Origin: Macrocystis pyrifera
Lineage: Eukaryota; Sar; Phaeophyceae; Laminariales; Laminariaceae
Assembly: GCA_031763025.1 (NCBI GenBank)
Contig: JASSKH010000021.1
Coordinates: forward strand, 5,970,611-6,034,610
Length of the DNA stretch: 64,000 nt
Reading direction: 5' to 3'
Position numbers and translations under genes: made by a program. Every line of letters starts with the position of its first letter. The first letter of the stretch is position 1. Shown one piece after another: positions 9,286 to 62,619 of the stretch. The notes beneath the pieces were generated by a model, which was not told the origin of the DNA, did no database searches, and saw only the letters and a list, made by a program, of their open reading frames with translations.

Positions 9286-10897
9286 TCAGCTTAAGAAGAG
9301 CACAATTCTCCAAGTGAAATTGAACAGCTGAGACGCCAGGTCAAGCTGGCGATGGAGAACAGCGAGGCGTCGATGCTGAACGCCATGAGGGAAATGACGG
9401 CCGAGTTCATGACGAACAACGGTCGATCGGAGCCAGGCAGCGCTGAAGGCAGCGTTGCTGTAGGAGAGAGTCCAGCAGAGGTAGGAACCACTGCTGTAGG
9501 GGAAAGCCCAAGAGGGGCAGTACCCACTGCTAAAGTACGAGAGACTACTGCTGCTGTTGAAGCAGGCATTGGTAGATCGGAGTCCGGCAGCGCTGAGGGT
9601 AGCGCTGCTGTAGGGGAGAGCCCACAAGGGGCAGTACCCACTGCTGAAAGAGAGATTGCAGCAGAACAAGAAACAAAATTTGCGTGAGGGCGCCTCGCCA
9701 GATTTGGGAGGAACTGGACGCGGAGGAACTGCGTTGCCTGTCGAGGTTGGCCCACCGAGGGGTTAACCAGACCGGCATGGGAGGACAGGAGGATGGGGTG
9801 CATACCCTGGTGGTGAGTTGGGTGGTGGATTTGATCTGCCTCTATCGCGCCATTTGGCCTTCCAACACACTCCTGTGCCATCGTTTAGTCGGCTAAAATC
9901 TGAGTTCAACCCCTGGACAAGAGACGCTCGGTATTACGCCAAAGGAGTTGGTTTCTTGTCTGCTTTCGTGTCGGATCCACCGCAGTACATTCCCGAAAAC
10001 TCAATGCTTGTCGCCAGGGGGTTTAGCCGCGAAAGTGTGCACAGACATACACTGGCGTGGAATTTCCTGTCGACAGCCCTCAAAAACAAGAGCGATAAGA
10101 GTATTTCACCGGTGTACCCCGCCGAGGCAAGCGTGGGACGCTCTCCTTGCGTGGTACGGCCCTCAGACGACGGGGGCCAAATCAGACCTCTCAGACGCCT
10201 TAACGGTTTTAAGATGGCGCCGGGGAGCAACCCGCTCGAGGAGAAGGGCAGGATCGAGGATCTTGCCGCGGAAATGCGCACAGCAGAAATGTTAGTAGAC
10301 GACCACTTGCTGTACACCATCTTTATCGACTCGCTGCCTGCCGAATACGAGGTGGAGGCTCGGAACCTGGCATCACGTGACAGGTTCGGCCGTCATGACA
10401 TCATCAAGGCTGTTCGAGAACGGCATCAACGACTTTCTGGAAACAGGAAGAAGGGGTCCAACGTTGGCCACGCAGGCCATGCTATGTACGCCGGCGCCGG
10501 CGGCGGTAGCGGTGGTCGCGGGAAAGGTGGAGGAAATGGCAGAGAAAAAGGCGGACGACGGGCTCACGGACGAGGCGGTAGAGACACCAACGAGGGCGGT
10601 GGTGGCTCGGTTGCGGCTGCTGGTGGCAATGGCAGCAGCGCCAAAGCCACCAGCGGAAGTACTCCAGTGAGCAAGTGTCATAGGTGTGGCAAGAAGGACC
10701 ATTGGAAGAGCGAGTGCACGGCGAAGCTATGCAGCCGATGCCAGGGACGCGGGCACTCTGCCGAATGCCTGCCCCACGTCCATGGATCGATGCAGTCGAT
10801 GCAACGGGCGGGTGCACGCTGCTGGTGTCTGCCCCTCATCGAAAGAAGATGCTGTCGTGGCGGTGACGAGCGAGGATGGGGCAAGGGACGACGATGA
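9286..10897 (+). pseudogene. Copia gag with CCHC zinc knuckle (frame-shifted)
   Basis: Gag makes the particle shell and binds RNA. The first open part (9352-9687) has a helical start and two copies of a repeat containing GSAEGS..AVGESP..AVPTA, then a stop. The second part (9818-10897) holds the core: VARGFSRESVHRHTLAWNFL, EKGRIEDLAAEMRTAE, FIDSLPAEYEVEARNL. A short internal stretch near 10100-10260 reads better in another frame (AWDALLAWYG). A Gly/Arg-rich segment precedes CHRCGKKDHWKSEC, a CX2CX4HX4C knuckle near 10676-10720, with a second, atypical CSRCQGRGHSAEC behind it. At least two frame changes make it non-functional. Confidence 0.85.
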
Positions 10898-10899
10898 AG

Positions 10900-11099
10900 A
10901 AAAAGGTACGGTCCAGGCCTCAGCTTTCAAGGCCGAAGAGACAGGCAAGTGCAGCGATGGTTCGGGGGAAGGGGAGTCTGCTTGGCAGGTAGGAGACGAG
11001 GCCTGGGTATGCGATAGCGGTGCGTCTACTCACATGAAGCCTTCCGCAGACTGCATGATAAACTATAGAGAATGCAACTTGACTCACCGAATCGCTGAC
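10900..11099 (+). pseudogene. Copia aspartic protease region, interrupted
   Basis: The frame 10686-11105 reads VGDEAWVCDSGASTHMKPS; the DSGA motif is the catalytic aspartate site of Copia proteases, which cut the polyprotein. The protein breaks at 11099, where a 982-bp LTR element has inserted. Coding resumes after 12086 with IEGYGD. The protease therefore cannot be read through. Confidence 0.8.
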
Positions 11100-12081
11100 T
11101 GTTGATTGATCCCTAAAGGTATAGGCGCAGCTGGCACGGGAACGCGTGGCTGACTCCAGACATGAAACACGAACTCCTCTTATATTACATCCTCGCTGTA
11201 GAGTTGACTCGGCTCACATGCAGTGTAGGGTTGCACCTGACGAGTGGCATTGGTGGGCACACATTACCCCGATATCCCAATACCCTACAGCCGGAATCCC
11301 TTTCCAGCGTGGAACTCCCCAATCTACCATGGATCTTATATGTCGTGTATCTGAGTACAATACCGCGGCGAGGTTTGGTGTTAGTTCTGGGAGGAATAAC
11401 CCGCTTTCGACTGGTGTGAAGCTCGAGGACTTTGACGAGAATGAACCCGTGGGTGATTGGCCTTTCCGCGCGTTGGTGTGGTCTGATGCTGGCAGAACCG
11501 AGCAAGTACAGCAGGAAGAGGTGTATGTGATGAACCCTTGTGCCCAACTACAGCAACAAACAAGTGGCGCGTGTCGTGCTACACACCAACCCAACAACTC
11601 AAAAACGAGATACCACTGAACGTCTTTGGACCAATTGGAGCGACGCTGAAAGTGTTCTGGCAGAATCCGCCTGGACTGCTGAAGCACCACGCCCGCAGGT
11701 GGTTGATGGGGGGGACGTTGCCCCCGAGGAAGGAGTCGAGGATATGCCCAGTCAAGAAGCCAGCGTGGAGAGTGAAAAGGTCATAATATTGAGATGTTTC
11801 CACCCAGCCTAGTGTGTTGATTGATCCCTAAAGGTATAGGCGCAGCTGGCACGGGAACGCGTGGCTGACTCCAGACATGAAACACGAACTCCTCTTATAT
11901 TACATCCTCGCCGTAGAGTTGACTCGCCTCACATGCAGTGTAGGGTTGCACCTGACGAGTGGCATTGGTGGGCACACATTACCCCGATATCCCAATACCC
12001 TACAGACGGAATCCCTTTCCAGCGTGGAACTCCCCAATCTACCATGGATCTTATATGTCTAGTATCTGAGTACAATCAACA
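11100..12081 (+). mobile_element. Nested miniature LTR retrotransposon (TRIM-like), TSD CTGAC
   Basis: Two direct repeats, 11100-11361 and 11815-12081, are nearly identical and start TGTTGATTGATCCC. The right one ends CAATCAACA, giving inverted LTR ends TGTTGATTG/CAATCAACA. The element is flanked by CTGAC at 11095-11099 and 12082-12086, a perfect 5-bp duplication. The 5' LTR has lost its last bases (it departs after GAGTACAAT at 11361) and no primer site is visible. The 453-bp interior keeps a stretch resembling the Copia RT/RNase H junction (NNPLSTGVKLEDFDENEP then GDWPFRALV), then a hydrophilic stretch. It is probably an internal-deletion derivative of another Copia family rather than a classic TRIM. 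Confidence 0.9.
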
Positions 12082-12086
12082 CTGAC

Positions 12087-13330
12087 GGATCCACTCGAGC
12101 GATCGAAGGTTACGGCGACGTGAGCGTTGTCTTTCGGTCCGGAAACGACCCGTGCAAGTGCTGCTTACGAACGTTGCGCACGTGCCGGATCTCCGCTACC
12201 ACTTATTTTCCCTGCCCACTCTCGTCAAAAACGGCCATACTTCCGAAGGGCGCCCCACGGGGGTTGTAGTCAGGCTCAAGTCAGAGCGTTCGATCATGTT
12301 TCCGTTGAGTGGGACCCTCTACAGCCTGTACGGCTACCGGGTCGACCGCAGTTGTGGGGAAAATGCCTGTGCTGTACTCGCCCCGGGACAACTACCCAAC
12401 AAGTCTGCGATAAACATCAACGATTTCCACTGCGCTGCTGGACACTCCCACGAGGTACTACTTCGCAAGACCGCGGAGCAGCAAGGGATTGTCCTCGAGG
12501 GAGAGCTGCTGGAGTGCAAAGGGTGATCCATGGCAAAGGGTCTCCGCAAAGGTATCAAGCAGTCCACACACACACGAGCAGATAAGAAGCTCGGGAGGGT
12601 TTCAGTGGATTTGAGTGGACCAAAGGTGGTAGAGTCTCTCGGGCGGAAGCGGTATACTCTCATCGTGCGCGACGATTTCTCACGGTATGCGTAGGTGTAC
12701 TTTATGCACCACAAGTCGGACGCCGCGGAAATTTTCGAGCAGTTCCTTGCGGATTCTCGTGCCGACGGTGTCCCTCCTACGGTGGTAATCGTCCGATCTG
12801 ATGGGGGTGGTGAATTCCGCGGGGGAACGTTAGTCGACCTGTGTAAATCACGAGGGATCAAGCAGGAAGTCACGACGGCCGACAGTCCCCAATTCAATGG
12901 AGTGGCAGAGCGCGCGCTAGATTTGATTGAGACGGCCGCAATGGCGGGCCGAATCCAGGCTCGAGAGCTGTTTCCTGGCGCGAAACTCCCGGCCACGACG
13001 TCGTTGTGGGCGGAAGCGCCCCACTGGGCGTGTGACGCCTTGAACCGCACAGCAACAACAGCCAACCCGCAGAGCAAGTCGCCACATGAGATGTGGCATG
13101 GTAGCCCCCCCCCCGGTAGTACTACTGCCTTTTCACAAGCCTGGCTACTGCAAGGTGAAAAGGGAAACAAGTCACAGGCGAAAGCACAAGAGTTCTCTTA
13201 CCTTGGCCCTGCACCAAACTACCCCCGAGACTCAGTACGAGTACTGACAAAGAAACGCACTGTGCTAATCACGCGCAATGTCACCTGGCAAAGCGTGTCG
13301 CCTGCACCACCTGTACCTGCCGAGGCAAAT
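12087..13330 (+). pseudogene. Copia GAG-pre-integrase and integrase (two in-frame stops)
   Basis: The frame 12152-12526 holds the pre-integrase region (LLTNVAHVPDLRYHLFSLPT; then FHCAAGHSHEVLLRKTAEQQ). Integrase joins element cDNA to the genome. Its DDE core is visible: VDLSGPKVVESLGRKRY near 12606, IVRSDGGGEFRG near 12790, and SPQFNGVAERALDLIE near 12885. The reading is stopped by TGA at 12524-12526 (KG*SMAKG) and by TAG at 12692-12694 (YA*VYF, where Copia has Trp). Beyond that the frame 12695-13726 is open. Confidence 0.88.
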
Positions 13331-14078
13331 GACTCCCTGCCTACGGAAAAGCGGGGGTCAGAGGCAGACGACGTGAGCACGTCGGATCGAAGTGGTGGGG
13401 GGGTGGTGGATGAGCTGGACAACGGTCTGGCTCACTTGAACGACCTCGACGTGACGTGGGGTTTTGACCTGGACGCGTTTATGCAGGAGCGCGCACAGCA
13501 GGCACCTACCGCCGGCAAGGCCGGCGGCGAAACACCCGAGACGATGGGTTCGTCTCAAGGGGGTGCCGTGGACGCCTCCTCGGTCCCGGCAGGGAGGGCC
13601 CGAAACAGCCGAGACGATGGATTCGTCTCAAGGGGGCGCCGTGGACGCCTCCTCGGTCCCGGCAGGGAGGGCCGGAAGCGACCCGGACGCAGCATCAGCC
13701 TCCGACACCGTCCAAGGGAACGGTGAGGATCCCCCCGCGGTCCTGTCGGGGAGGACAGCACACGAGCTCAGCAGCTGGGACCGGCTCCCCCCGACAGTAC
13801 GGGGCCGGACCTGGGGTCAGAGCCAACGCCTGGAGGGTGAACCTGCCGTGCACCAAGTAAGGATGGATGAAGGAGCCGCAGACGCGCTGCTTGGGGCAGC
13901 GTACGAGTCGTGGACGAAGCCTGGGAGTATGCTGAATCGTACGTCCTGGACGATGGAGGACGCTGTGGCTTTGATGGCCGGAGGACCTGCTGTGGAGAAC
14001 AAAGGGGAGTTGAGCGTGTGCATGCCGAGTGGTTTCCCGGAAAACGTAGAACCGCCCCCACAGTCCGTAGCAGTGTAG
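13331..14078 (+). pseudogene. Copia hydrophilic linker between integrase and RT
   Basis: This low-complexity acidic segment contains two repeats of about 72 bp coding SQGGAVDASSVPAGRA, the same as in the minus copy. A frame change near 13590 separates the frames 12695-13726 and 13464-14078. The segment ends FPENVEPPPQSVAV* where the sister copy continues SVADVERSQYKVAWHEAM into RT. Confidence 0.75.
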
Positions 14079-15096
14079 GTCTGACCCGTGTGTGTTTCGC
14101 ATGGTTGTGGACGGCAAGGTAGAACTGATCATGGCCGTTCATGTAGATGACATCGTGATCGCAGGATCGGATGAGACATGCAGAGATTTCCATGCCGCGC
14201 TAGCTATGAAATTTCCCAGGATTAACATCGGCGAACTGACTTGGTACACTGGTTGTGCTTTCAAATGCGACTGGGAACTGGGGACACTGTAGATTACGTA
14301 GGAGGCGTTCATTGAGAGCATGCTGAATCGTTTTGGTGTTAACTCATCCTCTGACATTCCTGCGATCCCCGGTGTGGAACTAGGTCCAAGATAGGAGGGC
14401 GAACTTGGAGGAGACTGGCCGTACAGGGAGGCTGTGGGTAGCTTGATGTGGCTGTCGACCATGACGAGGCCGGACATCTCGAACGCTGTGCGTGCTGTGG
14501 CGCGCCACTCCCACAACCCAACGGAGAGGCACTGGAAGGCAGTTTTGAAGATAATGGATTACCTCTACGGGACCAGGTTTATAGATTTGACTTTTGTGCG
14601 GGGCTCGGGATTGGATTTGACTGCGTGTAGTGATGCTGATTATGCGGATAAGTCGAACGATAGGCGCTTGGTATTGGGGACGATAATTACCCTAGGGGGT
14701 GCGGCCGTCAGTTGGGCAAGTAGCACGCAGAGGTGTGTTACGTTGTCGACAGCAGAAGCAGATTATGTCGCCCTGGGTGAATGGATGAAGGAAGCTTTGT
14801 TTGCGGGCGCGGTGTTGTCGTTTATTTGTCCGGAGCCAAGCGGATCATGTGTCCGGGTTTTCGAGGATAACCAGGGGGCCATAGCGTTGGCTGAGATCCC
14901 TCTTAGTTCTGCTCGGAGTAAGCATATCGACGTGCGTTTTCATTTTGTCAGAGAGCTACTTCGTGCTAAGAAGATCGACATTCAGTTCGTAGCTTCGGAA
15001 GCGCAGCACGCGGACATTTTGACGAAATCCCTTGCTGCGACCCCTTTCAAGTCTCACCGTAGGTTCTTGTTGAATCTACCTTTGGAGGGTGAGTAA
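14079..15096 (+). pseudogene. Copia RT C-terminal part and RNase H (N-terminal half of RT deleted)
   Basis: Coding resumes at VCVFRMVVDGK-type sequence (14085 onward) with VHVDDIVIAGSD, so about 500 bp encoding the first half of RT are missing relative to the minus copy. TAG codons at 14290-14292, 14299-14301 and 14392-14394 interrupt the thumb region. RNase H (14434-15096) is intact: MTRPDISNAVRAVARHSHN, CSDADYADKSNDRRLV, LSTAEADYVALGEWMKEAL, FEDNQGAIALAE, ARSKHIDVRFHFVRELL, HADILTKSLA, ending in a TAA next to the purine tract. Confidence 0.9.
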
Positions 15097-15666
15097 GGGG
15101 GATAAGCATTATTCGATGAGTACCATGTTTGAGTGATGCGAGGGATAATTTGTCAGGTCGCCAACCCTGCGCTACTTTGAGGGGCATGGGGGAATAGGGC
15201 ACCGCTTGGCATTTTATTTTCTGGCCGTGTTCATCGTTTGGAATGCGGCCGTTATTTCAATTGCAATGGTTTGGAGTTTATGTGTTAAACAGGGGGTTTG
15301 GACCCGGTGGCCGGGCTTCCTCCTGCGGGACTGTCGTTGGCTGCTATTAGGTCCTAGAAAGTCTTGAATGTCTTTTCGATCTCGTCACTGCTGTGAAAAG
15401 CCAGGGAGGGTGTTCGTTTGGATCGTTCCAGCAGCGACGGTTACAAGTTGTAGAGGGTTGCGCATATCTTCGCAGGCAATATTATGAATTATGCCATGTG
15501 TTCATGAGGAGAATTTGAGCACTCCGTTCTCTGCTCCGTTCTCTGCTCCAAGCTACGAGCTAGGCTCCGCTCTCTCTCTCCTCCTCTGTCCTCTAATGCA
15601 ACGACTATAACGAATCTCATCAGACCACGTGGTGGTCAGGGCATCCAGGCTTGCACTCTGCGAACA
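15093..15666 (+). mobile_element. Polypurine tract and 3' LTR of the plus-strand Copia copy
   Basis: A purine tract with AAGGGGG (15095-15101) precedes the LTR, whose start corresponds to TGAGCATT in the minus copy (here TAAGCATT at 15103). The core runs to CGAATCTCATCA at 15622; similarity to the 5' remnant continues to about 15666. No target duplication could be defined because the outer borders are not matched by a simple direct repeat. Confidence 0.8.
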
Positions 15667-16068
15667 TGCCCAGCCTCTCCTCTCCCCATGCTGTACCCAT
15701 TCCGCTCTCCGCTGTGGCGATGCTCCTCTTCTGCTGTTGGAACGAACTCCTCGGCATTGGGATTGAAATTAAAACTCATCGCCACCACCCCGCGCCGCCA
15801 ATAGTTCACCTACCAGACCGCGCGGGGTACCTCTCCACCGAGGTTGGGGCTTGTATGACCACCGGCAGACCGTCGTAGGTTCCGATGGGCTCCGGCCCAC
15901 CCCGAGATCGGGGCAGGCCGAAGCGCGATTAACCTAAAAAATGCCCAAGGACGTATGATGATCAGGATTATTTGGCATGTTACATCTGGATTTTCATACC
16001 ACAGCAGGACCAAGCTACGGATCCTGCTAATAGTACATTGTTCAAACCGGTATATGTACTGCATAGTA
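15667..16068. other. Non-coding stretch, nothing recognised
   Basis: Flank of the Copia complex. No homology to the LINE A relic left of the complex is seen here, so the complex does not simply split one LINE copy. Confidence 0.5.
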
Positions 16069-16177
16069 TTACGGGGGGCCATAGTAAATAGGGCCAAATA
16101 AATATCGTTAGTAGACGTAAGTAAATATGTAGGTTATTGCGTGTACCGTAGGTCCTATTTACTATGGTCCTCCGCAA
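16069..16177. mobile_element. TA-flanked MITE, copy 1
   Basis: About 105-bp near-palindromic element with ends TTACGGGGG and CCGCAA (a mutated CCGTAA). Inner arms CCATAGTAAATAGG and CCTATTTACTATGG are inverted repeats. The left flank is TA; the right flank is mutated (TC). It belongs to a family with copies at 40587, 42505, 57419, 57691 and 61408. Confidence 0.85.
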
Positions 16178-16801
16178 TCTAGGTAGACCTAGGGAATTGG
16201 ATATCTTGTACCGTAGGGGGCAACAGGGAGAGTGAAGCCAAGGGGTGAACGTACATACAGTCATAGCACAAGTTGCTATGGTGATTGTGGTTCTTGTTGG
16301 TTACGGTGTTCCAACATGCGGTTGGGGATATTTTACGTGGTAGTAGTGTGGTGGCGGCGGTTGTTATTGGTGGTAGTGGTGGGACGATGATTTTTTTTAT
16401 TAACAATGCGTATTAATACCGGTATTTTTTCAATGTCAATGACCCAAAAAAAACGAGGCAACGATATCGTACTGCTGTTGGCTCATCCTTAGATGAACGC
16501 AAAGGCACATCAGCTTTCGCGCTAGGAGCCTCTGTTCTTACGTTCAATCATGGTCAAGTAGTAGGCAAAATAGTTTCGATCGAAAATGTTTTTGACCATT
16601 TCTCCGCGGAAATATTTGAAATCCCATCCTGAAGAAAACGTCCGTCCTAAACTTCTATCTCACAATGTTGATTATAAAACACCGAATTGTTGTAAGCAAC
16701 TACAAGGGAGCCCGGTACATGTATCTGCCCAGGGCAGAAATGATTAACCCTCGTGGTTCGTGTCCCCACCGGCGCTACTTGAACCCCCGGAAGGTCGAAA
16801 C

Positions 16802-19039: not shown

Positions 19040-20510
19040 TACGCTACCCCCCCCCCCCCCCCCCTCGCCGCACTTGTTGCGATACTTTATAGCTTCTCAT
19101 TTCGCGCCCACCTGGCTCGCAAAACCGCGCCTACGCACACTCCAGTTGTTACCGCTTCCTACCCAGCCCAGGGAGTATCTCACTTGCCTCCACTCAATAC
19201 CCTGCCCCGGCTGGATTCCGCTACCCGTGCCCTCTTGGACCATCACGCTTGCTACCCAACCGGCGTCCTCCCCATGACTAGGTGCATACGCCTTGTTACG
19301 CGTCGGACGCCCACCGACCCTCACGCTGCAAGACCTCTGGTGTAGCCCCCCCGGGCCGACAGGTGAGTTGTGCCTCCAATCCTCAGGGAATGCAGGGCGT
19401 GATCCTCGGCACGCACGCCCGCCAACACCACCGTTCGCAGGGCAGCCGTCGCTTGTTGCTTGGTCCACATGGCCCATCTGCCGTTACCAATACCAAGAGC
19501 AACCAGGGGGGCCAACGAGAGAAGGAACGAATACCAAGACATCAAGTCGATAATTAGATCGACGGTGCCCCCCCCGGCGCCCACGGACCTCGGAAGACCC
19601 TTCCGCACGCGCATAAGAACTGCCTCCGTTCGCAATTGATCCCCCTTCGACCCGCTAAAGCGGACCTCAGCACGGTCAGCGGTCGACCACCGCGCTTCAG
19701 CCAGCTGGGCATCACCGCGAAAGAACGCTACGTAGGCCCGCCGCAAACAATACGACTCGTAAATTCGAGACCTCGTGTCCGCAAACATTTCCGACGCGTG
19801 GGTCAGGAAACAAAAATGATGCACACAGAGCAAGCCACAGAACCCGACCCCCAGCGCGCCACGACGGGATCAGAGCTTCGCCAGCAAGCAACATCACCCA
19901 TGAAATGGGCCGACACACGGTTGCTTGGTTTCCCGCGTCGGCGTGCGAACGAGCAGCGCCTTTGAGGGCGCTAGCAATAACGGATTGGGTTGTGTCGAGC
20001 TCAAAACCGCGCGAAATATGGTGAAAGTATTTGATCGCCGACAGCTGTCGATGATCGCTGACCGCATTTTTTGGTGGCAAAAGCGTACGCTACGTACTCA
20101 AACAAGCACCACGCGTTGACCATAAACAAGATCACTACCGTGCTGTAGGAAAACCGGCACTTCACAACGTACCCGGAAGTCTACCCAGGCGCCAAAATGC
20201 CCCAGACAAGTCTGTTCAGACGAGATCGCAACTGCGTTGCGCATGAGCTCGAGGCCAACACCGAAGTACAGAGAGACGTCCCGGCATCCCCGAAGTCCTG
20301 AGCCTGCCACGAAACATCAGAGCGAACGAAATGCAGGTTACGGAGGACAAGGTCACGATCCCAGCGTGAGATACCATCAGCAGCTACGTTAAAAACTCCC
20401 CGCACGTGTTTCGCGTCAAAGCGCCAACCCGAAGGCAACTCCAACCCCCCACGACACCGATGCACCCACTCCACGGCGGCTTCATTGTCCCCACGCATCA
20501 AAACGCAGTC
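19040..20510 (-). pseudogene. DIRS-like retrotransposon relic: RNase H end and tyrosine recombinase
   Basis: Reading leftward, 20181-20501 has MRGDNEAAVEWVHRCRGG and KHVRGVFNVAADGISRWD, the end of an RNase H as in DIRS and related tyrosine-recombinase retroelements. Further on come a recombinase core (19712-20080: LSAIKYFHHISRGFELDTTQ, ASALKGAARSHADAGNQAT, GGRVLWLALCASFLF) and its catalytic part (19321-19833: YCLRRAYVAFFRGDAQLAEA, SGSKGDQLRTEAVL, HSLRIGGTTHL, the H-x-x-R motif). After a further shift, NKAYAPSHGEDAGWVASVM may hold the active-site Tyr. The enzyme would insert circular cDNA by site-specific recombination. Several frame shifts make this copy dead. RT proper was not found. Confidence 0.8.
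19047..19064. repeat. C tract, 18 bp
   Basis: Uninterrupted C homopolymer beside the end of the DIRS-like relic. Confidence 0.95.
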
Positions 20511-31386: not shown

Positions 31387-31456
31387 CTGTGTATCGAGCA
31401 CAAAAAGAGCGACAACATACAGGCGTCGGCCGGGGAGAGGGGGGGGGGGGGGGGGG

Positions 31457-31549
31457 TGTACTCATTATCATACGCGACCGTAGTCGTATGACCATAGACC
31501 CTCGCATCCCTATAATGTCGGGACGGAGCATGTCGGGTTTGCACCAACC
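31457..31549 (-). mobile_element. Poly-C-flanked short retroelement, copy R1 (truncated)
   Basis: On the minus strand it ends in ATGAGTACAC and a C16 tract (31441-31456 as G) and contains GATGCGAGGGTCTATGGTC. The right side is bounded by another G tract (31550-31557). It sits in the intron upstream of the GAF core exon. Confidence 0.7.
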
Positions 31550-31854
31550 GGGGGGGGCGTCAAAGGGGTACTATAGGGAGGGAGAGAGAGAGGTAAAATC
31601 TTCGATCTCACAGCCGATGTTTTTTATTTGAATAAAAAGGGGGGAGTGACGGGGAACCTAGGGAAGGGGAGGTGCAGGGGGGGGCTAGTCGCACTATACT
31701 GGGAGGGACTGGCCAAGCGTGGGAGACAGTCCAGCCTTGCTTCGACACGCCTACCTGGTGCATAACTATCAGCAAAAAACTAGAGTCAGAGAGCCAGAGC
31801 CAGCCTGCCCTACGCCTTTTCTCTCACCGAGTGAACACCTGCTAAAGATGTCGA

Positions 31855-32324: not shown

Positions 32325-32860
32325 TATACCATACCATACCTCGCCACGCCACCTGCTGCAATACCATACCATACCATGGTCTGCACACACCGTACCATAT
32401 CATACCATGATAGGCCATACCACGTCATACCATGCCATGCCATTCCACACTACACCATACACACACCACACCGTACCGTACCGTACCATACCATACCATA
32501 CCATACCATACCATACCAAACCACCAAACCAACCATACCATACCATACCATACCATACCATACCATACCATACCATACCGTACCGTACCGTACCATACCA
32601 TACCATACCATACCATACCATACCATACCATACCATACCATACCATACCATACCATACCATACCATACCATACCATACCATACCATACCATACCATACCA
32701 TACCATACCATACCATACCATACCATACCATACCATACCATACCATACCATACCATACCATATCCATACCATACCATACCATACCATACCATACCATACC
32801 ATACCATACCATACCATACCATACCATACCATACCATATCATATCATACCACATCACACC
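32325..32860. repeat. Very long (TACCA)n microsatellite
   Basis: About 530 bp of the pentanucleotide CCATA (TACCA), almost uninterrupted from 32570 to 32840. There are variant TACCG units at 32469-32485 and 32578-32592 and a few breaks. It lies in an intron of the candidate gene; all long ORFs within it are artefacts of the 5-bp period. Confidence 0.97.
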
Positions 32861-32976: not shown

Positions 32977-33161
32977 AGGAGGGTACCCATGTCATGCATG
33001 GTCGCAGTTGCATGACTATACACCCTCGCATCCCTACAATGCCGGTACGGAGCACATCGGGTTTTCACCGACAAGGCATGCATTGCTTGCACCAAGCGTG
33101 AAGCGCCGTGAGGTGTTCGGCGAGTCGCATGAAGGGTGAACTAACTGCATCCTACTACGGC
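32977..33161 (-). mobile_element. Poly-C-flanked short retroelement, copy R2 with target duplication
   Basis: Roughly 185-bp element; on the minus strand it ends GACATGGGTACCCTCC then C's. It is flanked by AGCGGTGCAGGGGGGG (from 32959) and AGCGGTGCGGGGGGG (from 33162), an imperfect target duplication that includes a G tract. The body matches R3 and R4 (GATGCGAGGGT, CGGCATTGTAGG, CACCTCACGGCGCTTC, GGTGCAAGCAATG). Confidence 0.8.

Positions 33162-33836: not shown

Positions 33837-33880
<44 letters not shown>
33837..33880. repeat. C tract, 44 bp
   Basis: An uninterrupted run of 44 C. Exact length in an assembly is unreliable for such tracts. Confidence 0.95.
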
Positions 33881-34503: not shown

Positions 34504-34713
34504 CTGGAAACTTCTCGTCGAGCGCCGTCCCCCGAACCCCCACTGCTACCCCCCCCCCCCACCCACCCCTCTACCATCCCCATCCCGACCACCCCAACCA
34601 CCACCACCGCCATCATCCCCGCCAGCACCACCATCGCTGCTTCCACCGCAGCTGCTGCCGCAGAAGACGTCTAAGACATCGCTTCTCCCTCCCGCCGCCA
34701 TGGAGAAGAACAC

Positions 34714-34854: not shown

Positions 34855-35065
34855 TAAGGGGTGTACTCATGCCAGGCATTGCCGTAGTCCTGTGATCATA
34901 AACCCTCGCATTCCTACAATGCCGCTAAGGAGCACGTCGGGGTTTTCAACGACAGCGCAGAAATGGCTTTTGCACCAAGCGCGAAACGCCGTGAGGTGTT
35001 GGGCGAGTCGCATTTAAAAAGGGAGGGCTGAATTCTACTGAGAGCCGCTTGTGCGGTCGACTTTC
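34855..35065 (-). mobile_element. Poly-C-associated short retroelement, copy R3
   Basis: The body matches R2 and R4: minus-strand GCGGCTCTCAGTAGAATTCA, GACTCGCCCAACACCTCACG, CGCGCTTGGTGCAAAAGCC, GAATGCGAGGGTTTATG, ending CATGAGTACACCCCTTAGCC. Its terminal C tract is degenerate. It lies just before the 34791 acceptor. Confidence 0.7.
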
Positions 35066-35389
35066 TTGTATTCAACGACAGCGTCGAATGAAGTGATATA
35101 TTTTCTGGTGTGGCCACTTCCAGAGACGATAAACGGTAGCATCCGGGTGTCAATACCTCGAGTTTAGTATGAGACGCGTGTGCAGCATGATACGCATAAT
35201 CGTTACGCTGCGAGCTTACACCAGGCGTGTGAAAAAAAGAGGACACTCTTCACATTTGTGTGTCGAGGTTCGAAAGCGGTCAAGACATGAGTTTTACCGC
35301 AACCGCAAAACAAATCAACTCAAACTTGAAGGGTTCATTTCACCCATAGCATGGGTGCAGTTGCGGACACGCGCCGCTCCTACTTATTT

Positions 35390-36217: not shown

Positions 36218-36386
36218 GGGGGGGGGGGGGGGGGGGGGTTGTCATAACTGGAAGTATTGGGAAGGTGTCTCGTTTAGACGTCGAACACATGCCAAGCGGA
36301 CGACCACTAAAACCGTCGCACACAAACAGCCCTCGAACCAGAACAATCAAAACAACCAAAGAAGGGGGGGGGGGGGGGGGGGGGGG
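36218..36386 (-). repeat. Two G tracts (21 and 23 bp) bracketing a 125-bp segment
   Basis: G21 at 36218-36238 and G23 at 36364-36386 enclose a unique 125-bp sequence containing GGTTCGAGGGC on the minus strand (a possible B box). The arrangement matches other insertions into C/G tracts in this window, but only one copy of this insert is present. Confidence 0.5.
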
Positions 36387-38332: not shown

Positions 38333-38350
38333 GGGGGGGGGGGGGGGGGG
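38333..38350. repeat. G18 tract at the LINE B 3' end
   Basis: Poly-C on the LINE strand. Together with the G14 tract at 42675-42688 it forms the only duplicated sequence around LINE B. Confidence 0.9.
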
Positions 38351-40586
38351 CACTCACTTGTTGCTTGCCTTAGTCATTGGATCATTGACCACGCATCCCT
38401 TTCGAGCCGGAGCACCGTTCCTACTCCAAATAGAGGCACTTGCAACAATTGAGTGCTCATTACGTTGTTTCCATATACTACATAAAAAAAAAATGCTAAT
38501 CTTATCCCCTTCCTGTCTGGCCGCCTGTGGCCACCATCTATCTTCTAGGATAGCGATCGTTTTCTCAATGCTGTTCAGTGTATCAAAACTCATCCATGTC
38601 ACATTCGTCCATTTCCCTCGTCTCCTCTTCTAACACATCCCGTTCCTCCTTGTATACCTGGTATTTCACATTCTCCTACTATGTGAGTTCTACTCTCTAT
38701 TGCTTTGCCACACGGGCACATCTGTGCATCTACTTCCTCCTCCTCCCGGCTACTGGTATACCTCTTTCTTCTTTCTGGCAGGTCCAGGTCACCTACACGA
38801 AAGCGCAGTTTCAGCGTTTTCGCGAAGTCCATTGGGCCGTGCAAATACGTTTTCATTCCTATTCCTTCCCTCAATCCCCCGTATATCTCCACGTGTTTTT
38901 CGGATTCCACCTTGTTTCTTAGCGCTAGCCTTTCCCTTCTTTTTATCAATTCTTCTACTTCTGCCTTGTAGCTCCCAAACTTCCCGGCGGACATCATCTC
39001 TTCTTGGTTTCCCCCTATACCCTTCCATATTTTCTCAACTACGCCATCCCACCTTATTCCAGCTCGTCATTTTGTTACTTTCTCCCATACAGCCCTACTG
39101 GTATCAACTATGGCTGGCAACCTTTTTTTTGGCATATTCCTTACTTTATATTGCCATTTCAACTTCCTCACGTCTCTACTTGTCTTGAGTGGGTACATGC
39201 CCAGTTATGCTCTTAGTACTGTATTACCAGTCGTACTTGAGCATCTTGGAATTGTTTTAGCTGCTGTCCTTTGTACTGTTTCCAACTGTTTTACGAGTTT
39301 CGTGTTCCCTTCCCATACTCCTATTCTAGCTTTGGTACTATCACATTCATCAGTATACATATCTTAATCTTAGCGTCAAGGTGCGAGTCTGTTAGGATCG
39401 CATCCATCTTGCCTACGTGTGCTTTACCCTTTCCTATTGCTTTTGCTATATGTGTATCCCAGGAGCAGTATTTTGAGATATCTACGCCAAGGTATGTATA
39501 CTGGTCTACGATCGGCCGTTCATCTTCTCCCCACTTTCAACTGAAATTTACCGGGTTTACCTTATCTTCGTAACAAACCACTACCGCGCATTTCTTGACG
39601 TTCGCCGTCACCCTCCATTTCCTGGTGTATTCTAGCGCCTTCTCTATTTGTTTCTGCAACCCTTCGGGTGTTCCTGATATCCCCACGAAGTCATCCGCAA
39701 ACATCAATCCCGACACCGTATCTTCCCCTACCGTGACTCCCTGCCTTGTTGCCTCGACTGCTACTATTAGGTCGTTAAATATATATCTTGAACAGGTTAG
39801 GTGACAACGTACATTCCTGTGCAACTCCCTGTAAAATATGAACATACTTCGATATTTCCCCGTCCAGCATCACAGCACTTCTCGCACATTCCGTCATATT
39901 TTTCATCATTCTCCACATCTTTCCTCTGATTCCTATTTCCCACAGTTTTTTCCACAATCCATTTCTCCATACTGTATCGTAGGCTTTCGGCACATCTAGA
40001 AAGGAACAGTACGTTGTTAGTACCGCGTCTTTCCTACCTTGAATAATCGTACCTAAGGTGTACATATGGTCTACGCAACTACGGTTTGGCCTAAACCCTG
40101 CTCACCCTTCGCTTATTTTGTCTTCCTTCTCCATCATCCCTCCCATTCTATCGTTTAAAATCTTACAAAATGTTTTGCCTACTGTGCTTAGTAGCGTTAT
40201 CCCTCTATAGTTCCCCGGGTCAGCCTTATCTCCTTTCTTGAATAAGTTTACTACTACTCCTTCTCTCCACCTCCTAGGTGCGTACTCGTTTTTCCATATC
40301 CAGTTATACAACATAACCATCATGGTAAGCATTCCTTCCCCCCCGTACTACTTCATAAATTACTTCACTATTTGGTCTGTCCCTGCTGCCTTTCTATTTT
40401 CAAGCTTAGCTACACACTTATTTACTTCTTCCCTTGTGAACTCTCTCCGTAACCCTCCCGAACCACTGTCTTCTCTTTCTGATGTATCTACGTTCGCCTC
40501 TGCCCACGCGTTGATTTCCTTCTCGAATTCTGCACCGAACGTTTCGTTGGCTGTGGGTGTTCCTAGCTTACGGTAATGCTCTACTA

Positions 40587-40690
40587 TTACGGGGGTCCAT
40601 AGTTAACAGGACCAAATATTGTTAGTAAAAATACCTAAATATATAGGTTTTATGTATGCCATAGGTCCTGTTAACTACAGACCCCCGTAA
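40587..40690. mobile_element. TA-flanked MITE, copy 2, inside LINE B
   Basis: TTACGGGGGTCC...GACCCCCGTAA, 104 bp, with TA on both sides. It interrupts the LINE B ORF after VNSSKGKREALL (minus strand), so it is younger than the LINE insertion or moved with it. Confidence 0.95.
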
Positions 40691-42504
40691 TAGTGCTTCC
40701 CTTTTCCCCTTCGAACTATTAACAATTTTACCGTTATGTGCTATTAGAGTAGCTATTTCCGTGTCTGCCTCTCCTGCTTGTTTGTTCAGTATCCCTTTTA
40801 TCCCTACCCACATCTGATTCATCCCGCCCTCAAAGTCTTCATTCGTTTTGTTTACTACGTCATTCCATATCCCTTTCTTCTTCTTCTTCTCTGCCGTCTC
40901 TTTTACTTTCTTTCTAGCTATCGCATATTCCTCCCACCCTGTCGTAGTTTTACTCGATGTATACCTTGCGTGTGCCTTTCTCCTTACTCTTATAGCCTCT
41001 TTCACTTCCTCATCCCACCATTTTACTGCTCTGTTGCATACTATCAACTTCTTCCCTATTACTTTACATGCTGTGGTCTTGACCAACTGCTCCCATCCTT
41101 CTATTATCCTAGCTCCTGCTCTCTATATCGTTCCTTGTTGTACCTATTCTTTCCAACAGCTCAGAACATTGCTCTGCATTTTTGGCCATCTCTTCTTGGA
41201 ACTCTTCCCGTTTCTCTTTTACTTCTAGTTTATCTATTCTCCGTCGGTGCAATTTTTCTACCTCGTCTATGTTGGATAACTCTCGTCAGTTGACTCTCTG
41301 TCCATATTAGACAGTGATCCGTAGTTCCTACGTCCGCTGCGCATACAGTTCCGTGCCCTTACCACTTCCATTTTCTACTACTATAAAGTCAAGGATAGAG
41401 CTTTCTTCCTTTTGTATGCACTGTCTAGTCCATTCTGGTTCTGCCTTTTTAACTCTGTCGTTCAACGTTTTCATCTCGTTGTGCTTGAGGAACTTCAGCA
41501 TATCTTCCCCATTCTTATTATTTGATACTTCCCCACATTGTCCAATGTTCTCATTCAGTTTGCTTGCCTTCTCAATTCTTGGGTTAAAATCTCCCACTAC
41601 AGTATTACTACTTCTTCTTGCCTCCTACACTTCTGCACATCCACTGCTACTTCTCCGAACTTCCTTTGTATATCTTTTATCGTATTCTTCGACTCCGGGG
41701 GCATATAGATGTTTCCTAAGAAGTAATATTTCGCTCCCCGCTCCCCTGGTATCTTAATCCATATGCTTTCGTCGAATTTAGTCCCTTTGATCACCTCTAT
41801 TATGTCACACAGGTATTCTTTGACTAGGAACCCCCCGCCCCCCTATTCTTGCTATTCTGTCCCTTCCTCTTTTTGCCTATCCATGCGTACTCTCCAACTT
41901 TGCATCATATTTCCCCTGCAAACTTTCTCCCACGACTCTTGAATTCCCACTATGTCTAGGTCGTGCTCACTTACTTGTTCGGCAATCTCGATTATTTTGC
42001 GCTCTTCCGTGGCGAAGCCACATACATTCCATGATCCTATTCTCAGCCTCCTTTTTGTTTCACTATCCGCTCTAGTTTTACTTGTTGTTCCTTCTCCGTT
42101 GTCGCTACGAGTATTTTTGTCATCTCTTCTTTGAGCATTCTTTCTGTTTCCGTTCCTGTTCTCGTTTGCTTGTTCTGCGCCCCTCTGTTTCTCCCCCATT
42201 CCCTTTGAGCCACTTGCAGTTTCCTGCCTCTCCTTACCTTCGTTCACCCTAGGATTACGTCTTAGTTTCGCTACTCCATTAGCTATACATAAGCTCCATC
42301 CTAGTTTTTCAACCCATGCCGACACTTTTGCTGTCTCCATCCTCTGCCACTCCATGCTCGCTTTCGGCTTTAGCGTGACTCGGAAGTGTTCTCCCTCTCG
42401 TTCTATGTTTCCTACTGCACAGCAGCACAGTCCTACTTCGTCGCACTTCCTCTTTAACTCGACCCTCGCCATGTCGCTAGAAACGCCAAACATCAGCACT
42501 ACTA

Positions 42505-42610
42505 TTACGGGGGACCATAGTTAGCAGGACCTACGGTACACACAAACACCCGTACATTTCAAAAAATTTACTAACCCATATTTGCTCCTGTTTACTATGG
42601 CCCCCCGTAA
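42505..42610. mobile_element. TA-flanked MITE, copy 3, inside LINE B 5' part
   Basis: TTACGGGGGACC...GGCCCCCCGTAA, 106 bp, with TA on both sides. Its interior is reversed relative to copy 2. It splits the N-terminal reading (NESGWIKKDWQGKAL before, MARVELKRKCDE after). Confidence 0.95.
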
Positions 42611-42674
42611 TAGTGCTTTGCCCTGCCAATCTTTCTTTATCCACCCACTCTCGTTCATCACCGCCTTTTTCGGA

Positions 42675-42688
42675 GGGGGGGGGGGGGG
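42675..42688. repeat. G14 tract at the LINE B 5' end, next to a splice donor
   Basis: On the gene strand the order is exon, CCCAAG|GTGATC, then this tract as C, then LINE B. Confidence 0.9.
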
Positions 42689-43670: not shown

Positions 43671-44021
43671 GAAGTGACACAGAACACGAAGATGAGCGCA
43701 CGACGCGTGACGCCACCGCAAGAGCACACACGTGCCGAAGTGAACGGTACGGGGTGTCGGGGGCATCAGAGGCGGCGGCGTCAAGTCAGTGCGGACCCGA
43801 CACAAGAACAAAACGTACCCACTAGGTCACCTACACAATACCAGGCACAGTACAGATACCTCGTGCGCCGCTCCCGTTCGCGGGAAAAAATACTTGAAAG
43901 TATACCGCAAAATATGTCGATCTGCAGCACAGCCGTAAGAGGGTTAAATCGCCAAGTAGCATGCATCCCTGCTCTTACGCTCCCCCGTATCCTTCTCGCC
44001 ACCCGCTCCCTACCCCCCCGC

Positions 44022-44745
44022 CTACTCGCTGAAACAAGGTGGGATAGCGTAGGCGAGAAAGTATGGAAGGATACAGGAGAAAACCAGGGAGAAAAAAACG
44101 TCCGCAGAGAAGTTTGGGAGGTACGAGACAGAAGTAGAAGAAAGGATAGAAAGAAGGGGAAGGACAGCGCTAAGAAGCAAGGTGAAATCGGAGAAGCACT
44201 TAAGAGATACAAGAGGGATTAAGCTCAGGGATCGGAATGAAAACGTATTCGCACGGCCCAATGGACTTCGCGAAAACGCTCAAAAATGCGCGTTCGTGTA
44301 GGTGACCTGGACCCGCCAGAAAGAAGAAAGAGGTTACCAGTAGCCGGGAGGGGGAAGAAGTAGATGCACAGATGTCCCCGTGTGGCAAAGCAATAGAGAG
44401 CAGGAGTCACACAGAAGAAGAATGTGAGAAGTACAAGGAGGAACGGCATGAAATAAAAGAGATGAGGGAAATAGACGAATGTGATATGGAGGAGTTTGGT
44501 ACACTAGATAGAAGCGGGAAAACGATAGCTATCCTAGGAGACAGATAGTGGCCACAGGCGGCGAAACAGGCAGGGGATAAGATTCGCAAAAGAAAACTAC
44601 GTAACATATAGAAACAGCGTGATGAGCGGCCAACTGTTGGAGGTGTTTCTATTAGGAGTAGGTAACGGTGCTCCGTCTCGAAAGGGATGCGTTGTCAATG
44701 GCCAAACGACTGGGGCAAGCAACAAATGAGTGCCCCTCCCGCGCG
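44022..44745 (+). mobile_element. LINE B 3'-end fragment (5'-truncated), C tracts on both sides
   Basis: The plus strand repeats the C-terminal end of LINE B: VWKDTGENQGEKNVRREVWE, NENVFARPNGLRENA and the 3' UTR with AGCTATCCTAGGAG, GCAAGCAACAAATGAGTGCC. It then enters CCC-rich sequence and a C49 tract. The 5' break is next to a C7 run (44013-44019). It is antisense to the candidate gene and lies in its intron. Confidence 0.85.
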
Positions 44746-44757
44746 CCCCCCCCCCCC

Positions 44758-44758
<1 letters not shown>

Positions 44759-44807
<49 letters not shown>
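44759..44807. repeat. C tract, 49 bp
   Basis: The longest homopolymer in the window, between the LINE B fragment and repeat R4. Confidence 0.95.
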
Positions 44808-45038
44808 TACTTATCTCATTGAAGCTGTCATCCATGCGCAAGTCCGCCTCACAAGCGGTTTCTTAGTAGGATGCAGCTCACCCTTCATACGACTCGGCGA
44901 CCACCGCACGTTCCGCTTCGCGCTTGGTGCAAGCAATGTCTGCCTGGTGAGTCAACCCCCGACGTGCTCCGTCCCAGCATTGAACGGATGCGAGGGTCTA
45001 TGGTCGTATAATATGACCAGGCCCATGCATGGTATCGA
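44808..45038 (+). mobile_element. Poly-C-flanked short retroelement, copy R4 (longest)
   Basis: About 230 bp, from TACTTATCTCATTGAAGC after the C49 tract to GGTATCGAGTA before CCCCCCCCTCCCCC. It contains ACAAGCGGTTTCTTAGTAGG, GACTCGGCGACCACCGCAC, GCGCTTGGTGCAAGCAATG, CGACGTGCTCCGTCCC and GGATGCGAGGGTCTATGG. Its last 80 bp are related to the LINE B 3' end (GGTGCTCCGTCTCGAAAGGG...ATGAGTGCCCC). Confidence 0.75.
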
Positions 45039-46310: not shown

Positions 46311-46518
46311 CTGGGTTTGCGGGGAAACGCGCCGAAATGATAACGGGGGAGGGGGGGGGGGGGGTTAACCCTATGTCTTCTGCAACGAATGTCCTAATTC
46401 AACTCTTGGCTAGATTGTGCCCGACCGTGCGTACAGAAACAAGCAAAACAAGCAAAAACCAACCGAACAAGCAACTGGCCCGACGAAAATGACCCCAGCA
46501 GCGCGAGCTCAAGCTTAC

Positions 46519-54566: not shown

Positions 54567-55475
54567 ACTCCCTCCAAGGAGCATGGGAACGAGCGGAACG
54601 GAACGAGGCTGCTCGTGTTCATTCGTTCCGTTCCTATCTAAAAAAAAAAACGTGTCTGGATCCATGCAGAATCCTGGGCCTCGCCAGCCGAATCGGTACG
54701 AACGGTATATTTTGTACATGACACGGCAAAATGGTGTCCACATCCATCTTCGGTGGTGTCCATCTACATCGAATAATATGCCATTTGTTGCCGTTCGGTC
54801 GGGCCGTTCGGTCCTCTCCAACAAGAAAAAGGGGTATAACACTTCTTCTTCCTCTTCCTCTTCCTCTTCCTAGATACATACTGTTTTTTCTCGGGCTGCA
54901 CTGAATCTCGTCGTTTCCCACAACCGATCAGCACCAATTCATGCGGCAAATAATATTCCATTCGGTTCGTTCCAATGAGTACAGACACCCCCCTTTTACT
55001 CCCTTCAAAGCGCATGGGAACGACGGGAACGGAACGAGGCTGCTCGTGGTCGTTGGTTCCGTTCCTGACCAGCCTCGTTCCGTTACAACGTTACAACGCA
55101 AAAAAAAAAAAAAAACGTGTTTTGGTCCGTGCCGAATCCTGGGTCTCGCCAGCCGAATCTGTACGAACGGTATCTTTCGAATGTGCCACGACAGTGTGTT
55201 GTGCGCATATTGGTGTCCACGTCCATCTTCGGGTGGTGTCCATCTACATCAAACGAGATGCTATCTGTTCCCGTTCGGTCGGGCCGTTCGGTCCTCCCAA
55301 AGAAGAAAACGAGGTGCAACGTGCAACGGCGGTGCAACACTGCTTCTTCCTCTTTCAAGATATGCAGTTTTTCTCCGGCTGCACTGAATCTATTCGTTTT
55401 CCACGACCAATCAGCACCAATTCACGTGCCAAACAATATTCCACTCGGGCTCGTTCCGATGCTGCTCCCTTGGGG
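54567..55475 (+). repeat. Direct tandem duplication, about 430-470 bp units
   Basis: Unit 1 (about 54567-54998) and unit 2 (about 54999-55475) share GCATGGGAACGA, GGAACGGAACGAGGCTGCTC, GAATCCTGGG, CCATCTTCGG(G)TGGTGTCCATCTA, TTCGGTCGGGCCGTTCGGTC and ATCAGCACCAATTCA. Both contain an A-run. Identity is visibly below that of the 95-bp intronic duplication, so it is older. Confidence 0.85.
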
Positions 55476-55488
55476 GGGGGGGGGGGGG
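55472..55488. repeat. G tract, 17 bp
   Basis: Uninterrupted G homopolymer at the end of the duplication. Confidence 0.95.
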
Positions 55489-56700: not shown

Positions 56701-57418
56701 GAACAAACGATACTGCAAAATCAAGTAGTACACGGCTAGTTTTAAACATTCAAGCAAACACCACTCAAACTCGTGCGTGTATAAGCAAACAATACCACAA
56801 TCAACCGAATGCCACGATATGAATAGTAGTGTTTACGACTTGGCCCAGCTTGGACAACATTGCTTGACAACCCGCTCTAATTTAAAGTACGTATTAATGG
56901 TAGTGTTTACGACTTCACCCAGCTTCGACAAAATGGCTGATGGTCCACACTAATTTTTAGTATTTATAGGACTGGGCACTTGCACAGTATGTGCTGGCAG
57001 TGGCAATCCACTGATTAACCCAGCCAGTATATTTGCCAGTAATTTTTCTTACGTACGTCCAAGAAACACGCCATATTACAGTACGGAAACCCACCAGGTG
57101 CGTTTCGAGAGGAGAGAGGAGAGCGGAAACACAGCAGTACACTGCTGCAATCCAGTTTACTGATTGGTTTCGACGATAGAATCATCGCTACTGACTGAGT
57201 CAGCCAGTGCCCAGCCCTAAAGTACCTATACTAGTGCTTAAGACTCGGCCTAACTTGGACAGAATGATTGATAGTACACACTACCATTAATAGTAAGCTT
57301 CCCATTGCATCGCCGTTCCGAGAAACGTTCCATGCGGTCGGAGTGTATAAGGTTATATAATGATCAGAGTTACCGCTCCTGCTGTAGTATTGAATGTCAA
57401 GTGCAAGCAGTATTATTA
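56701..57418. other. No gene recognised
   Basis: GTGTTTACGACTTGGCCCAG and a similar string with CTTCACCCAGCTT are repeated about 80 bp apart (56829, 56904), with a third, weaker one near 57237. Confidence 0.45.
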
Positions 57419-57522
57419 TTACGGGGAACCATAGTAAATAGGACCGAATATAGTTGGTAAAAATAGGGAAATATATAGGTTTTGTGTGTACCGTAGGTCC
57501 TATTCACTATGGCCCCCCGTAA
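57419..57522. mobile_element. TA-flanked MITE, copy 4
   Basis: TTACGGGGAACC...GGCCCCCCGTAA with TA on both sides; interior in the same orientation as copies 2, 5 and 6. Confidence 0.95.
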
Positions 57523-57690
57523 TATTGTAATACGTTTCACAAGTTTTGTTGAAGGTGGGGCAAGGTTTGACACGTAAGACAGACCATGATATATCTATCT
57601 ATCTACAGATGATCTAGTTCCTCGCCTGCCGTTGCGACAGTTTCTGCAGAATCTGCACAGCACAGATCCGAACCAGGAAACGTGAACTAT

Positions 57691-57796
57691 TTACGGGGGA
57701 CCATAGTAAACAGGAACCAAATATTGTTAGTAAAAATAGGTAAATATATAGGTTTTTGTGTATACCATAGGTCCTGTTAACTATGGATCCCCGTAA
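57691..57796. mobile_element. TA-flanked MITE, copy 5
   Basis: TTACGGGGGACC...GATCCCCGTAA, TA at the right, TAT at the left. It lies only 168 bp from copy 4. Confidence 0.95.
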
Positions 57797-57916
57797 TAGA
57801 TAATGCAGAATGTACGGGCCCCACCCGGCAAGATGATCTGCAAGATCATACATACATGATCGGGAATGGACCTGCCTTCATTGATTGTCTGTCTGAGGCA
57901 TTCAAGGTTTATACAG

Positions 57917-57936
57917 CCCCCCCCCCCCCCCCCCCC
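57917..57936. repeat. C tract, 20 bp
   Basis: Uninterrupted C homopolymer with no insertion beside it. Confidence 0.95.
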
Positions 57937-61202: not shown

Positions 61203-61407
61203 AGGGGCTACCGTTTCGGGGACACCTGACTTGGGAGTTAGAAGGATACATATGTTTCTGTAAATTGCGGCACTACTCGGGGTTGGCGTTTTCGAGCCAG
61301 GGGGACCCGCAAAAACAAACCCTGGCGTGACAACACGCTCCTGTTCCCGAGACCTGGACGGGGGGTGTACTAAAATGAAGTGTGCAACAAGCTAAAAATA
61401 GATGGTA

Positions 61408-61513
61408 TTACGTGGGGCCGTAGTAAATAGGACCAAATATTGTTGGTAAAAATAGGGAATATATATAGGTTTTAGTGTGTACCGTAGGTCCTGTTAACTA
61501 TGGACCCCCGTAA
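61408..61513. mobile_element. TA-flanked MITE, copy 6
   Basis: TTACGTGGGGCC...GGACCCCCGTAA with TA on both sides; one extra base in the left arm. Confidence 0.95.
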
Positions 61514-62619
61514 TAGTACACAAGCAAAAAACATTAGTACCAAGGCCAGGTGTAGTCCTACCGGTAAATATATATACCGGTTATATTCAAAAGTATTATA
61601 CAAAGGATCCATACGCTTGAGGGACCGAGCGGTGTACGGTGTATGTACAAATCGAAGCCTATAATGGTACATAAACCTGACATACAGATTTACCTGGTAT
61701 ATATACAATCGTTCGCGTCGCCTGAGAGCGAAGCATTCGCTTCCGGCGATTCCGAACATGTCGTGTTGAATTTTGGCTGGATTCCAGATGCCGTCGATTT
61801 CCTAGCTTCGCGCTTGCTTTTTCGACCGCGTTCCTCGAGGGTCGCGCTCACCGGGCTCCAACGGGTGCTCTCCTGTGCACACATCTCGGAGTCTCGCGTC
61901 ACCGACGAGCGCAGCGACCCCGAACTCGAAGGATCTTTGCTGGGGCGAGGAGACACGGAGGTTCTATTTTCTCCGGTCCTGGAGATTTGTTTCGCTGTTT
62001 GTTGCTCCGCGAAGAGCTTGTTGTGACAAGAATCGATCTTAGCTTTTTTTCTCGCCGAGGTTCGATCTCTCGGCCTTTCTGGTGCCATCGCTTTCTCCCC
62101 ACTCCCTTGCTGCATGCGAGCCGCCATCGGCCTGTTCGACCCCCACGGTCTTGCCTTGCTGGGTGGCTGCCTTCCCTTGCCCCTCCCCTCTCTCCTCGCG
62201 GGTCGACTATGCGCGCCTTCCTCGGGGTATCGCGCCGTGCTTGGTACCAGATCATTGAGTTGGATATCCCGGTGATGTGGTGTTTCTCGGTGTAATTCGG
62301 CGTGTCGTTTGTTTTCGCCGGTCGAATTGAATGTGAAGGTTGCTGGATAGTATCGTTTCGGTCGAGTGCTGTGGGTTCGATTTTAAAGAAACGACCGAAT
62401 GCATCGGAGGATACTGTACACGTGGTTGTACATGCTCGAACTACTGCTGTCCACTGCTGCAAGGTCTGATCTCGGGAGGCGCATTGATGTACGAGTACTA
62501 CAGCAGCAGCAGCAGCAGCAGTACGGCAGTTCAGAGGCGTTCTACTTCGAATATGTACAAAGCAGACCCAAATATCCATTCGTAACAAGCGCACCCGATG
62601 AGCGTGTCTGGTATGGGCT
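61514..62619. other. No gene recognised
   Basis: A 282-codon minus ORF (61899-62747) spans unrelated repeats at its start and shows no motif. A CAGCAG tract lies at 62502-62521. Confidence 0.4.

Follow-up and report, generated by a model that had tools for sequence, protein, structure and literature searches.

A retrotransposon family of the kelp Macrocystis pyrifera that very probably inserts into poly-C tracts

LINE B and a second copy in the analysed stretch

The stretch analysed here comprises 64,000 nucleotides of the Macrocystis pyrifera genome (GenBank assembly GCA_031763025.1, contig JASSKH010000021.1, positions 5,970,611 to 6,034,610 of the forward strand) and is referred to as the window. 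It contains a long interspersed nuclear element (LINE), designated LINE B, which lies on the minus strand between two runs of C. LINE B is very probably a member of a family of non-long terminal repeat retrotransposons that inserts into pre-existing poly-C/poly-G tracts, a reading drawn from genomic DNA sequence. Its parts are given below, together with two copies of a repeat resembling a miniature inverted-repeat transposable element (MITE) and the start of a domain of the apurinic/apyrimidinic (AP) endonuclease type.

38333 to 38350, minus strand (G18 on the plus strand): C18 immediately past the 3' end of LINE B, its tail or the right half of the target duplication
38351 to 42674, minus strand: body of LINE B, 5'-truncated, with reading frames broken in this copy
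38602 to 39066, minus strand: open stretch for the C-terminal part of the LINE protein, with the same frame in loci L025 and L026
40583 to 40694: MITE-like repeat of approximately 110 bp within LINE B (BLAST)
41855 to 42520, minus strand: open stretch with the beginning of an AP-type endonuclease domain (weak PF03372 match)
42500 to 42614: second MITE-like repeat of approximately 110 bp within LINE B (BLAST)
42675 to 42688, minus strand (G14 on the plus strand): C14 immediately ahead of the 5' end of LINE B, the putative target tract and left half of the duplication

Direct reading of the window confirmed the original prediction that LINE B is flanked by C18 at its 3' end and C14 at its 5' end, with only C duplicated and no further base doubled. 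The element was found to be slightly 5'-truncated, as approximately 594 nt of additional upstream sequence are common to the copies at L009 and L018. The PF03372 match of LINE B (E 0.00094, 19.4 bits) lies below the curated cut-off of 24.5, and a Pfam search of the open stretch at 38602 to 39066 gave no match. Better-preserved copies encode a reverse transcriptase (RT), with domain PF00078 identified in L028 (3869 to 5929, E 6.3e-26), for which the nearest PDB chains are those of R2 and L1 ORF2p. The C-terminal frame stops at TGA, followed by GTACG and then by C, giving the very short simple-repeat 3' untranslated region (UTR) that is a trait of RTE and RTE-X elements. The family can be categorized as a LINE family, as it possesses an RT of the LINE/group II type, frequent 5' truncation, a constant 3' end and a target duplication. 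It does not resemble an L1-type LINE with a poly-A tail, the tails being composed of C. No relatives were found among the viral contigs searched.

The MITE-like repeat is palindromic and was identified in the window at 16064-16178, 40583-40694, 42500-42614, 57417-57524, 57691-57799 and 61406-61516. It was also frequent in the loci fetched from the assembly, and two of its window copies interrupt LINE B.

A second copy of the LINE B type lies downstream on the plus strand, with the following parts.

44013 to 44026, plus strand: putative target tract ahead of the second copy, C7 plus GCCTACT (C7-GCCTACTC)
44028 to 44731, plus strand: second LINE B-type copy, 5'-truncated, 81.5% identity (BLAST)
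44732 to 44811, plus strand: C-rich tail of the second copy, C4TCCCGCGCGC12AC49, closing with the repeated CCTACT

This fragment had been described as bounded by C runs, which holds for both of its sides, while a duplication of other bases was overlooked: the CCTACT at 44021-44026 is found again at 44806-44811, past the C12-A-C49 tail, and was thus doubled alongside the C. Thirteen pure C/G runs of at least 12 nt were counted in the window, of which four belong to LINE B and the second copy, so that the window alone provides weak evidence and the wider sample described below decides. C/G tracts of at least 12 nt with no recognised LINE B or SINE-like neighbour (the SINE-like repeat, resembling a short interspersed nuclear element, is described below) were observed at 19047-19064, 33837-33880, 34549-34560, 36218-36238, 36364-36386, 46351-46364, 55472-55488 and 57917-57936; these may be native tracts or tails of other families.

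C tracts at the flanks of sampled copies

The published M. pyrifera assembly is described as a PacBio and Hi-C assembly of 537 Mb in 223 contigs with an N50 of 13,669,674 (PMC10498591), and the assembly searched here held 537,376,219 bases in 223 contigs. As the first query included C18 and might favour C-tailed copies, the search was repeated with a query ending approximately 250 bp before the 3' end. With this second query the sequence right past the 3' end was found to be C-rich in 30 of 30 loci (40 scored places, 3,152 candidates). Loci from both queries were pooled and nine duplicate loci were removed before counting, resulting in a sample of 61 3' ends.

At 53 of these 61 ends, a run of eight or more C was identified no further than 5 nt from the 3' end (28/31 from first-query loci, 24/28 from second-query loci and 1/2 in the window). 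Of the eight that remain, the C run is shorter or broken up in six, and two (in L027 and L028) lack one immediately past the element. At the 5' side 53 junctions could be scored, five of the remaining ends running off their locus and three belonging to copies of near full length. At 43 of the 53, a run of six or more C stops no more than 20 nt upstream of the junction (24/29 first-query, 18/23 second-query, 1/1 window), as against 6,785 of 374,722 background positions (1.81%). The flanks of the MITE, employed as a control with each copy read on both strands, showed a C run in 0 of 60 cases at either end. The three near-full-length copies are L018, L009 and LINE B of the window, the last with C14 ahead of it; L018 has C28-AAC ahead and C12-AAC behind. 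Scoring the flanks of other copies had been proposed with the original prediction, and most sampled copies were found to sit in C tracts. In this sample the majority of copies lay in one type of target with a target duplication, the features by which a site-specific (microsatellite-targeting) LINE is recognised.

The duplication was frequently found to include bases other than C. The test called for at least 3 nt between tract and junction and for a shared string of at least 6 nt with at least 3 non-C bases, the left string being allowed to reach as far as 4 nt into the element. Thirteen of the 26 testable copies share bases between the C run and the junction with the sequence past the 3' tail (examples being L019 CCCGTCTGT, L024 ATGCTCCAA, L027 CGAAAATAGA and L058 CCCCTGGTCG), while shuffling of the flank partners 1,000 times gave a mean of 1.81 and a maximum of 7. 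A stricter prefix test identified 6 of 41 copies, against a mean of 0.36 and a maximum of 4 over 2,000 shuffles. The C run and the 5' junction were separated by 0 to 16 nt. The earlier statement that no other bases are duplicated therefore holds for LINE B itself, while in the family the duplication often extends several bases past the tract. Placement by chance is excluded by the shuffled flank partners, the background positions and the MITE flanks. Since an upstream tract is present at truncated copies and non-C bases are shared in half of the testable ones, the C tract existed before insertion and was duplicated; as far as can be read from these flanks, it is the insertion target.

Across the assembly, an exact 16-mer of the 3' end occurred 5,372 times and its reversed control 0 times, with two nucleotides and C6 (NN-C6) directly following in 3,714 cases.

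Several observations weigh against this reading. Ten of the 53 scorable 5' junctions lack an upstream C tract, as does the near-full-length copy L009 ahead of its 5' end, and in 13 of the 26 testable copies no duplication beyond the tract is clearly visible. The strict NN-C6 was absent after 1,658 of the 5,372 exact 3' ends; of 20 such ends read, 19 nevertheless start C-rich and one (L093) does not, these 20 being the head of the list, mostly on small contigs and with several near-identical. A second control repeat displayed C-run flanks in 0/6 and 1/6 cases at its two ends. Finally, tract lengths were taken from as much as 200 nt on the right and at most 60 nt on the left, a difference that may favour the right. 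So measured, the downstream (3') tract was longer in 31 of 42 copies, shorter in 10 and equal in one (Wilcoxon p 3.5e-5), with medians of 29.5 downstream and 17 upstream. As the 3' tract tends to be longer, C seems to have been added to it on top of the duplication.

A longer 3' tract would also be expected if the C run were merely the 3' tail of the element, in the manner of the poly-A of L1, with insertion occurring at random in a genome in which C/G tracts are abundant. This explanation is considered highly improbable, since truncated copies have a C tract ahead of the 5' junction in 43 of 53 cases, the background being 1.81%, and since 13 of 26 copies have bases beyond the tract in common between the two sides. 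The proposal that a LINE with a C-rich 3' end enters poly-C, and would hence be primed on poly-G, is supported by the sampled copies.

A further explanation, which the original prediction had named as its own possible undoing, is that the tracts represent filler from the assembly or artefacts of sequencing. The precise length of a run may be untrustworthy whatever the assembly. The tracts are nevertheless not filler, because the assembly was built from PacBio long reads and because non-C bases past the tract are duplicated; in addition, the context GAGTA-NN-C12 occurs at 14,769 sites and the reversed pattern at 88, an asymmetry before and after C12 that leaves an artefactual origin with practically negligible probability.

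Two observations concern the placement of the 3' ends themselves. On contig C125, at approximately 1.49-1.60 Mb, the 3'-end 16-mer recurs, several times approximately 11 kb apart, with no strict C tail, and this is perhaps a tandem array that has captured a LINE B 3' end. On the small contigs L079, L082, L087, L090 and L097, LINE B 3' ends that are almost identical and share one flank were also observed, as in satellite or segmental duplication.

A SINE-like partner and the source of the tracts

A SINE-like repeat of approximately 535 bp, a length derived from upstream alignments of few copies, was found to end in GAGTACAC or a close variant, followed by C. Four fragments of it are present in the window.

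31439 to 31552, minus strand: SINE-like repeat fragment with a C18 tail
32989 to 33157, minus strand: SINE-like repeat fragment
34862 to 35127, minus strand: SINE-like repeat fragment, 77.5% identity
44812 to 45061, plus strand: SINE-like repeat, 5'-truncated (to about 45042), with a C-rich tail

All 20 of the SINE-like copies fetched (40 listed among 4,314 candidates) carry a C run of at least 6 at the 3' end. The last 73 nt or so of the repeat align to the 3' end of the LINE with a score of 49, compared with a mean of 12.8 and a maximum of 26 over 2,000 shuffles, and the partner thus shares its 3' end with a LINE, as SINEs do. A search with RNAalifold over this shared 3' end (37 LINE and 5 SINE rows) gave no conserved RNA fold. 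Among seven SINE-like copies in which the 5' end was read, a C tract lies upstream in five (L015, L027, L028, L050, L051) and not in L014 and L042.

The upstream target tracts of the LINE copies were then compared with the tails of earlier insertions. Nineteen of 43 were identified as such tails, 12 SINE-like and 7 of LINE B; a script had labelled 13 as SINE and 6 as LINE, after which L021 was removed and L022_1864 added by hand. Locus L022 contains successive LINE copies, each placed in the tail of an earlier one. As C tracts are left on both sides of an insertion and tails are reused as targets, the LINE and SINE-like families would seed their own landing sites.

The other 24 of the 43 target tracts could not be recognised as LINE B or SINE-like tails, and the 14,769 GAGTA-NN-C12 sites are far fewer than the 93,041 C/G tracts of at least 14 nt in the assembly. 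These figures suit an alternative in which native C tracts arise otherwise, from C-rich 3' splice-site tracts or from other repeats, with LINE B only exploiting them and self-seeding being minor. The 19 of 43 targets that are earlier tails speak against this alternative, which is considered a serious possibility, if somewhat less likely than not. The contexts of the tracts had suggested splice sites (branch point TAAC) as a source. This could provide a small part at most: TAA precedes C12 in 2,065 cases and 1,149 in the reversed pattern, so the idea accounts for little. The contrary proposal is that the LINE/SINE pair is homopolymer-specific and makes its own targets, with the tract being duplicated, one copy of it lengthened and later insertions received. 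This would explain why long C/G tracts are approximately twice as frequent as A/T tracts of at least 14 nt (43,766), and the arguments for and against it are regarded as evenly balanced.

Other repeats were observed in the window. The region 6087-15666 contains a pair of Copia-like copies that are inverted relative to each other and about 92-94% alike along extended segments; RVT_2 was matched within 7063-8193 and gag, weakly, within 9767-10894. A long (ATACC)n array of period 5 with about 98 copies is located at 32361-32851.

Proposed mechanism and relation to known systems

The DNA itself shows that a C tract is the target and is duplicated, that the 3' tract is the longer one, that LINE and SINE-like repeat have a common 3' end and that insertion into earlier tails occurs. 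The most probable steps by which these features would arise are proposed as follows. The predicted AP-type endonuclease would nick the G-rich strand inside or at the edge of a tract, for which it may have a preference. The 3' terminus freed in the G run would then base-pair with the C-rich 3' end of the RNA of the element, priming reverse transcription. Target-primed reverse transcription is established for R2 and L1, and under this process the C found downstream on the sense strand makes the G strand the primer. The other strand would be cut from 0 to about 16 nt beyond the tract, so that the C tract would be duplicated together with a few bases next to it and the new copy would frequently be 5'-truncated. 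The RNA tail or slippage may supply the extra C that lengthens the downstream tract, and the SINE-like repeat, possessing the same 3' end, would employ the machinery of a LINE B-type element. Addition of C to the end of the cDNA by the RT is excluded by strand, as the 5' end would then carry G on the sense strand.

Alternatively, the nuclease may have little preference for poly-G, with any nick or break being used and insertion succeeding solely if the exposed 3' end can pair with the C tail; the target would then be selected by annealing rather than by cutting. The gap of 0 to 16 nt between C run and 5' junction is in keeping with this, since a variable gap indicates that the second cut lacks a fixed position, as is the weak endonuclease match. 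The sequence data do not separate this alternative, considered less likely yet a serious contender, from a nuclease that itself selects the tract, as the two differ solely in the origin of the first nick.

If insertion into C tracts is as proposed, a LINE specific for poly-C, present in thousands of copies and accompanied by a SINE, would offer a clean natural system in which to distinguish site choice by the nuclease from site choice by pairing of the RNA tail with nicked DNA. A link would also be drawn between one retrotransposon system and the composition of an entire genome, since its future targets are the tracts that it leaves behind.

Target choice by LINEs with an AP-type endonuclease is usually weak. 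LINEs that target microsatellites and telomeres (Tx1, R1 and others) were reportedly treated by Kojima and Fujiwara in 2004, and the kelp family is like these in using a simple repeat as its landing site; their known targets are multi-base or telomeric repeats and not poly-C. No poly-C-targeting LINE was found in the open-licence literature searched, Repbase being outside that search, and the kelp family is read here as a new form of microsatellite-targeting LINE. In the portion available of a 2026 paper, Tx1 and R1 alone are listed among AP-endonuclease clades as having site-specific LINEs (PMC13295347).

Among brown algae, the LINEs of Saccharina are reported, in the available text, to include RTE, RTEX, Jockey, L1 and CRE (PMC4421812). 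The RTE-X LINEs of Ectocarpus and RTEX-N1_Ec32 resemble the kelp pair in having several thousand copies per family and a non-autonomous partner of approximately 600 bp that shares the 3' end; in the text available, the terms "poly-c" and "homopolymer" give 0 matches and no C tail or C target is mentioned, the comparison being one of descriptions only (PMC12477816). The Bov-B LINE of the RTE clade and the Sauria SINE likewise share a 3' end with microsatellite-like termini, and the first base of their target duplication agrees with the tail, according to the portion of the source available; the target signature of Bov-B is Tn-TA, unlike the C homopolymer of the kelp family (PMC13295347). RTE-clade LINEs of Lepidoptera, as described in the part of the report available, have a single frame with endonuclease and RT, an extremely short 3' UTR of simple repeats and many 3' fragments, and generate microsatellites, traits in which the kelp family probably resembles them (PMC2887409). 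For the lepidopteran elements the generation of microsatellites is described, and not entry into a homopolymer (PMC2887409); in kelp, a lone C is the repeated unit, and the tract serves as the target too.
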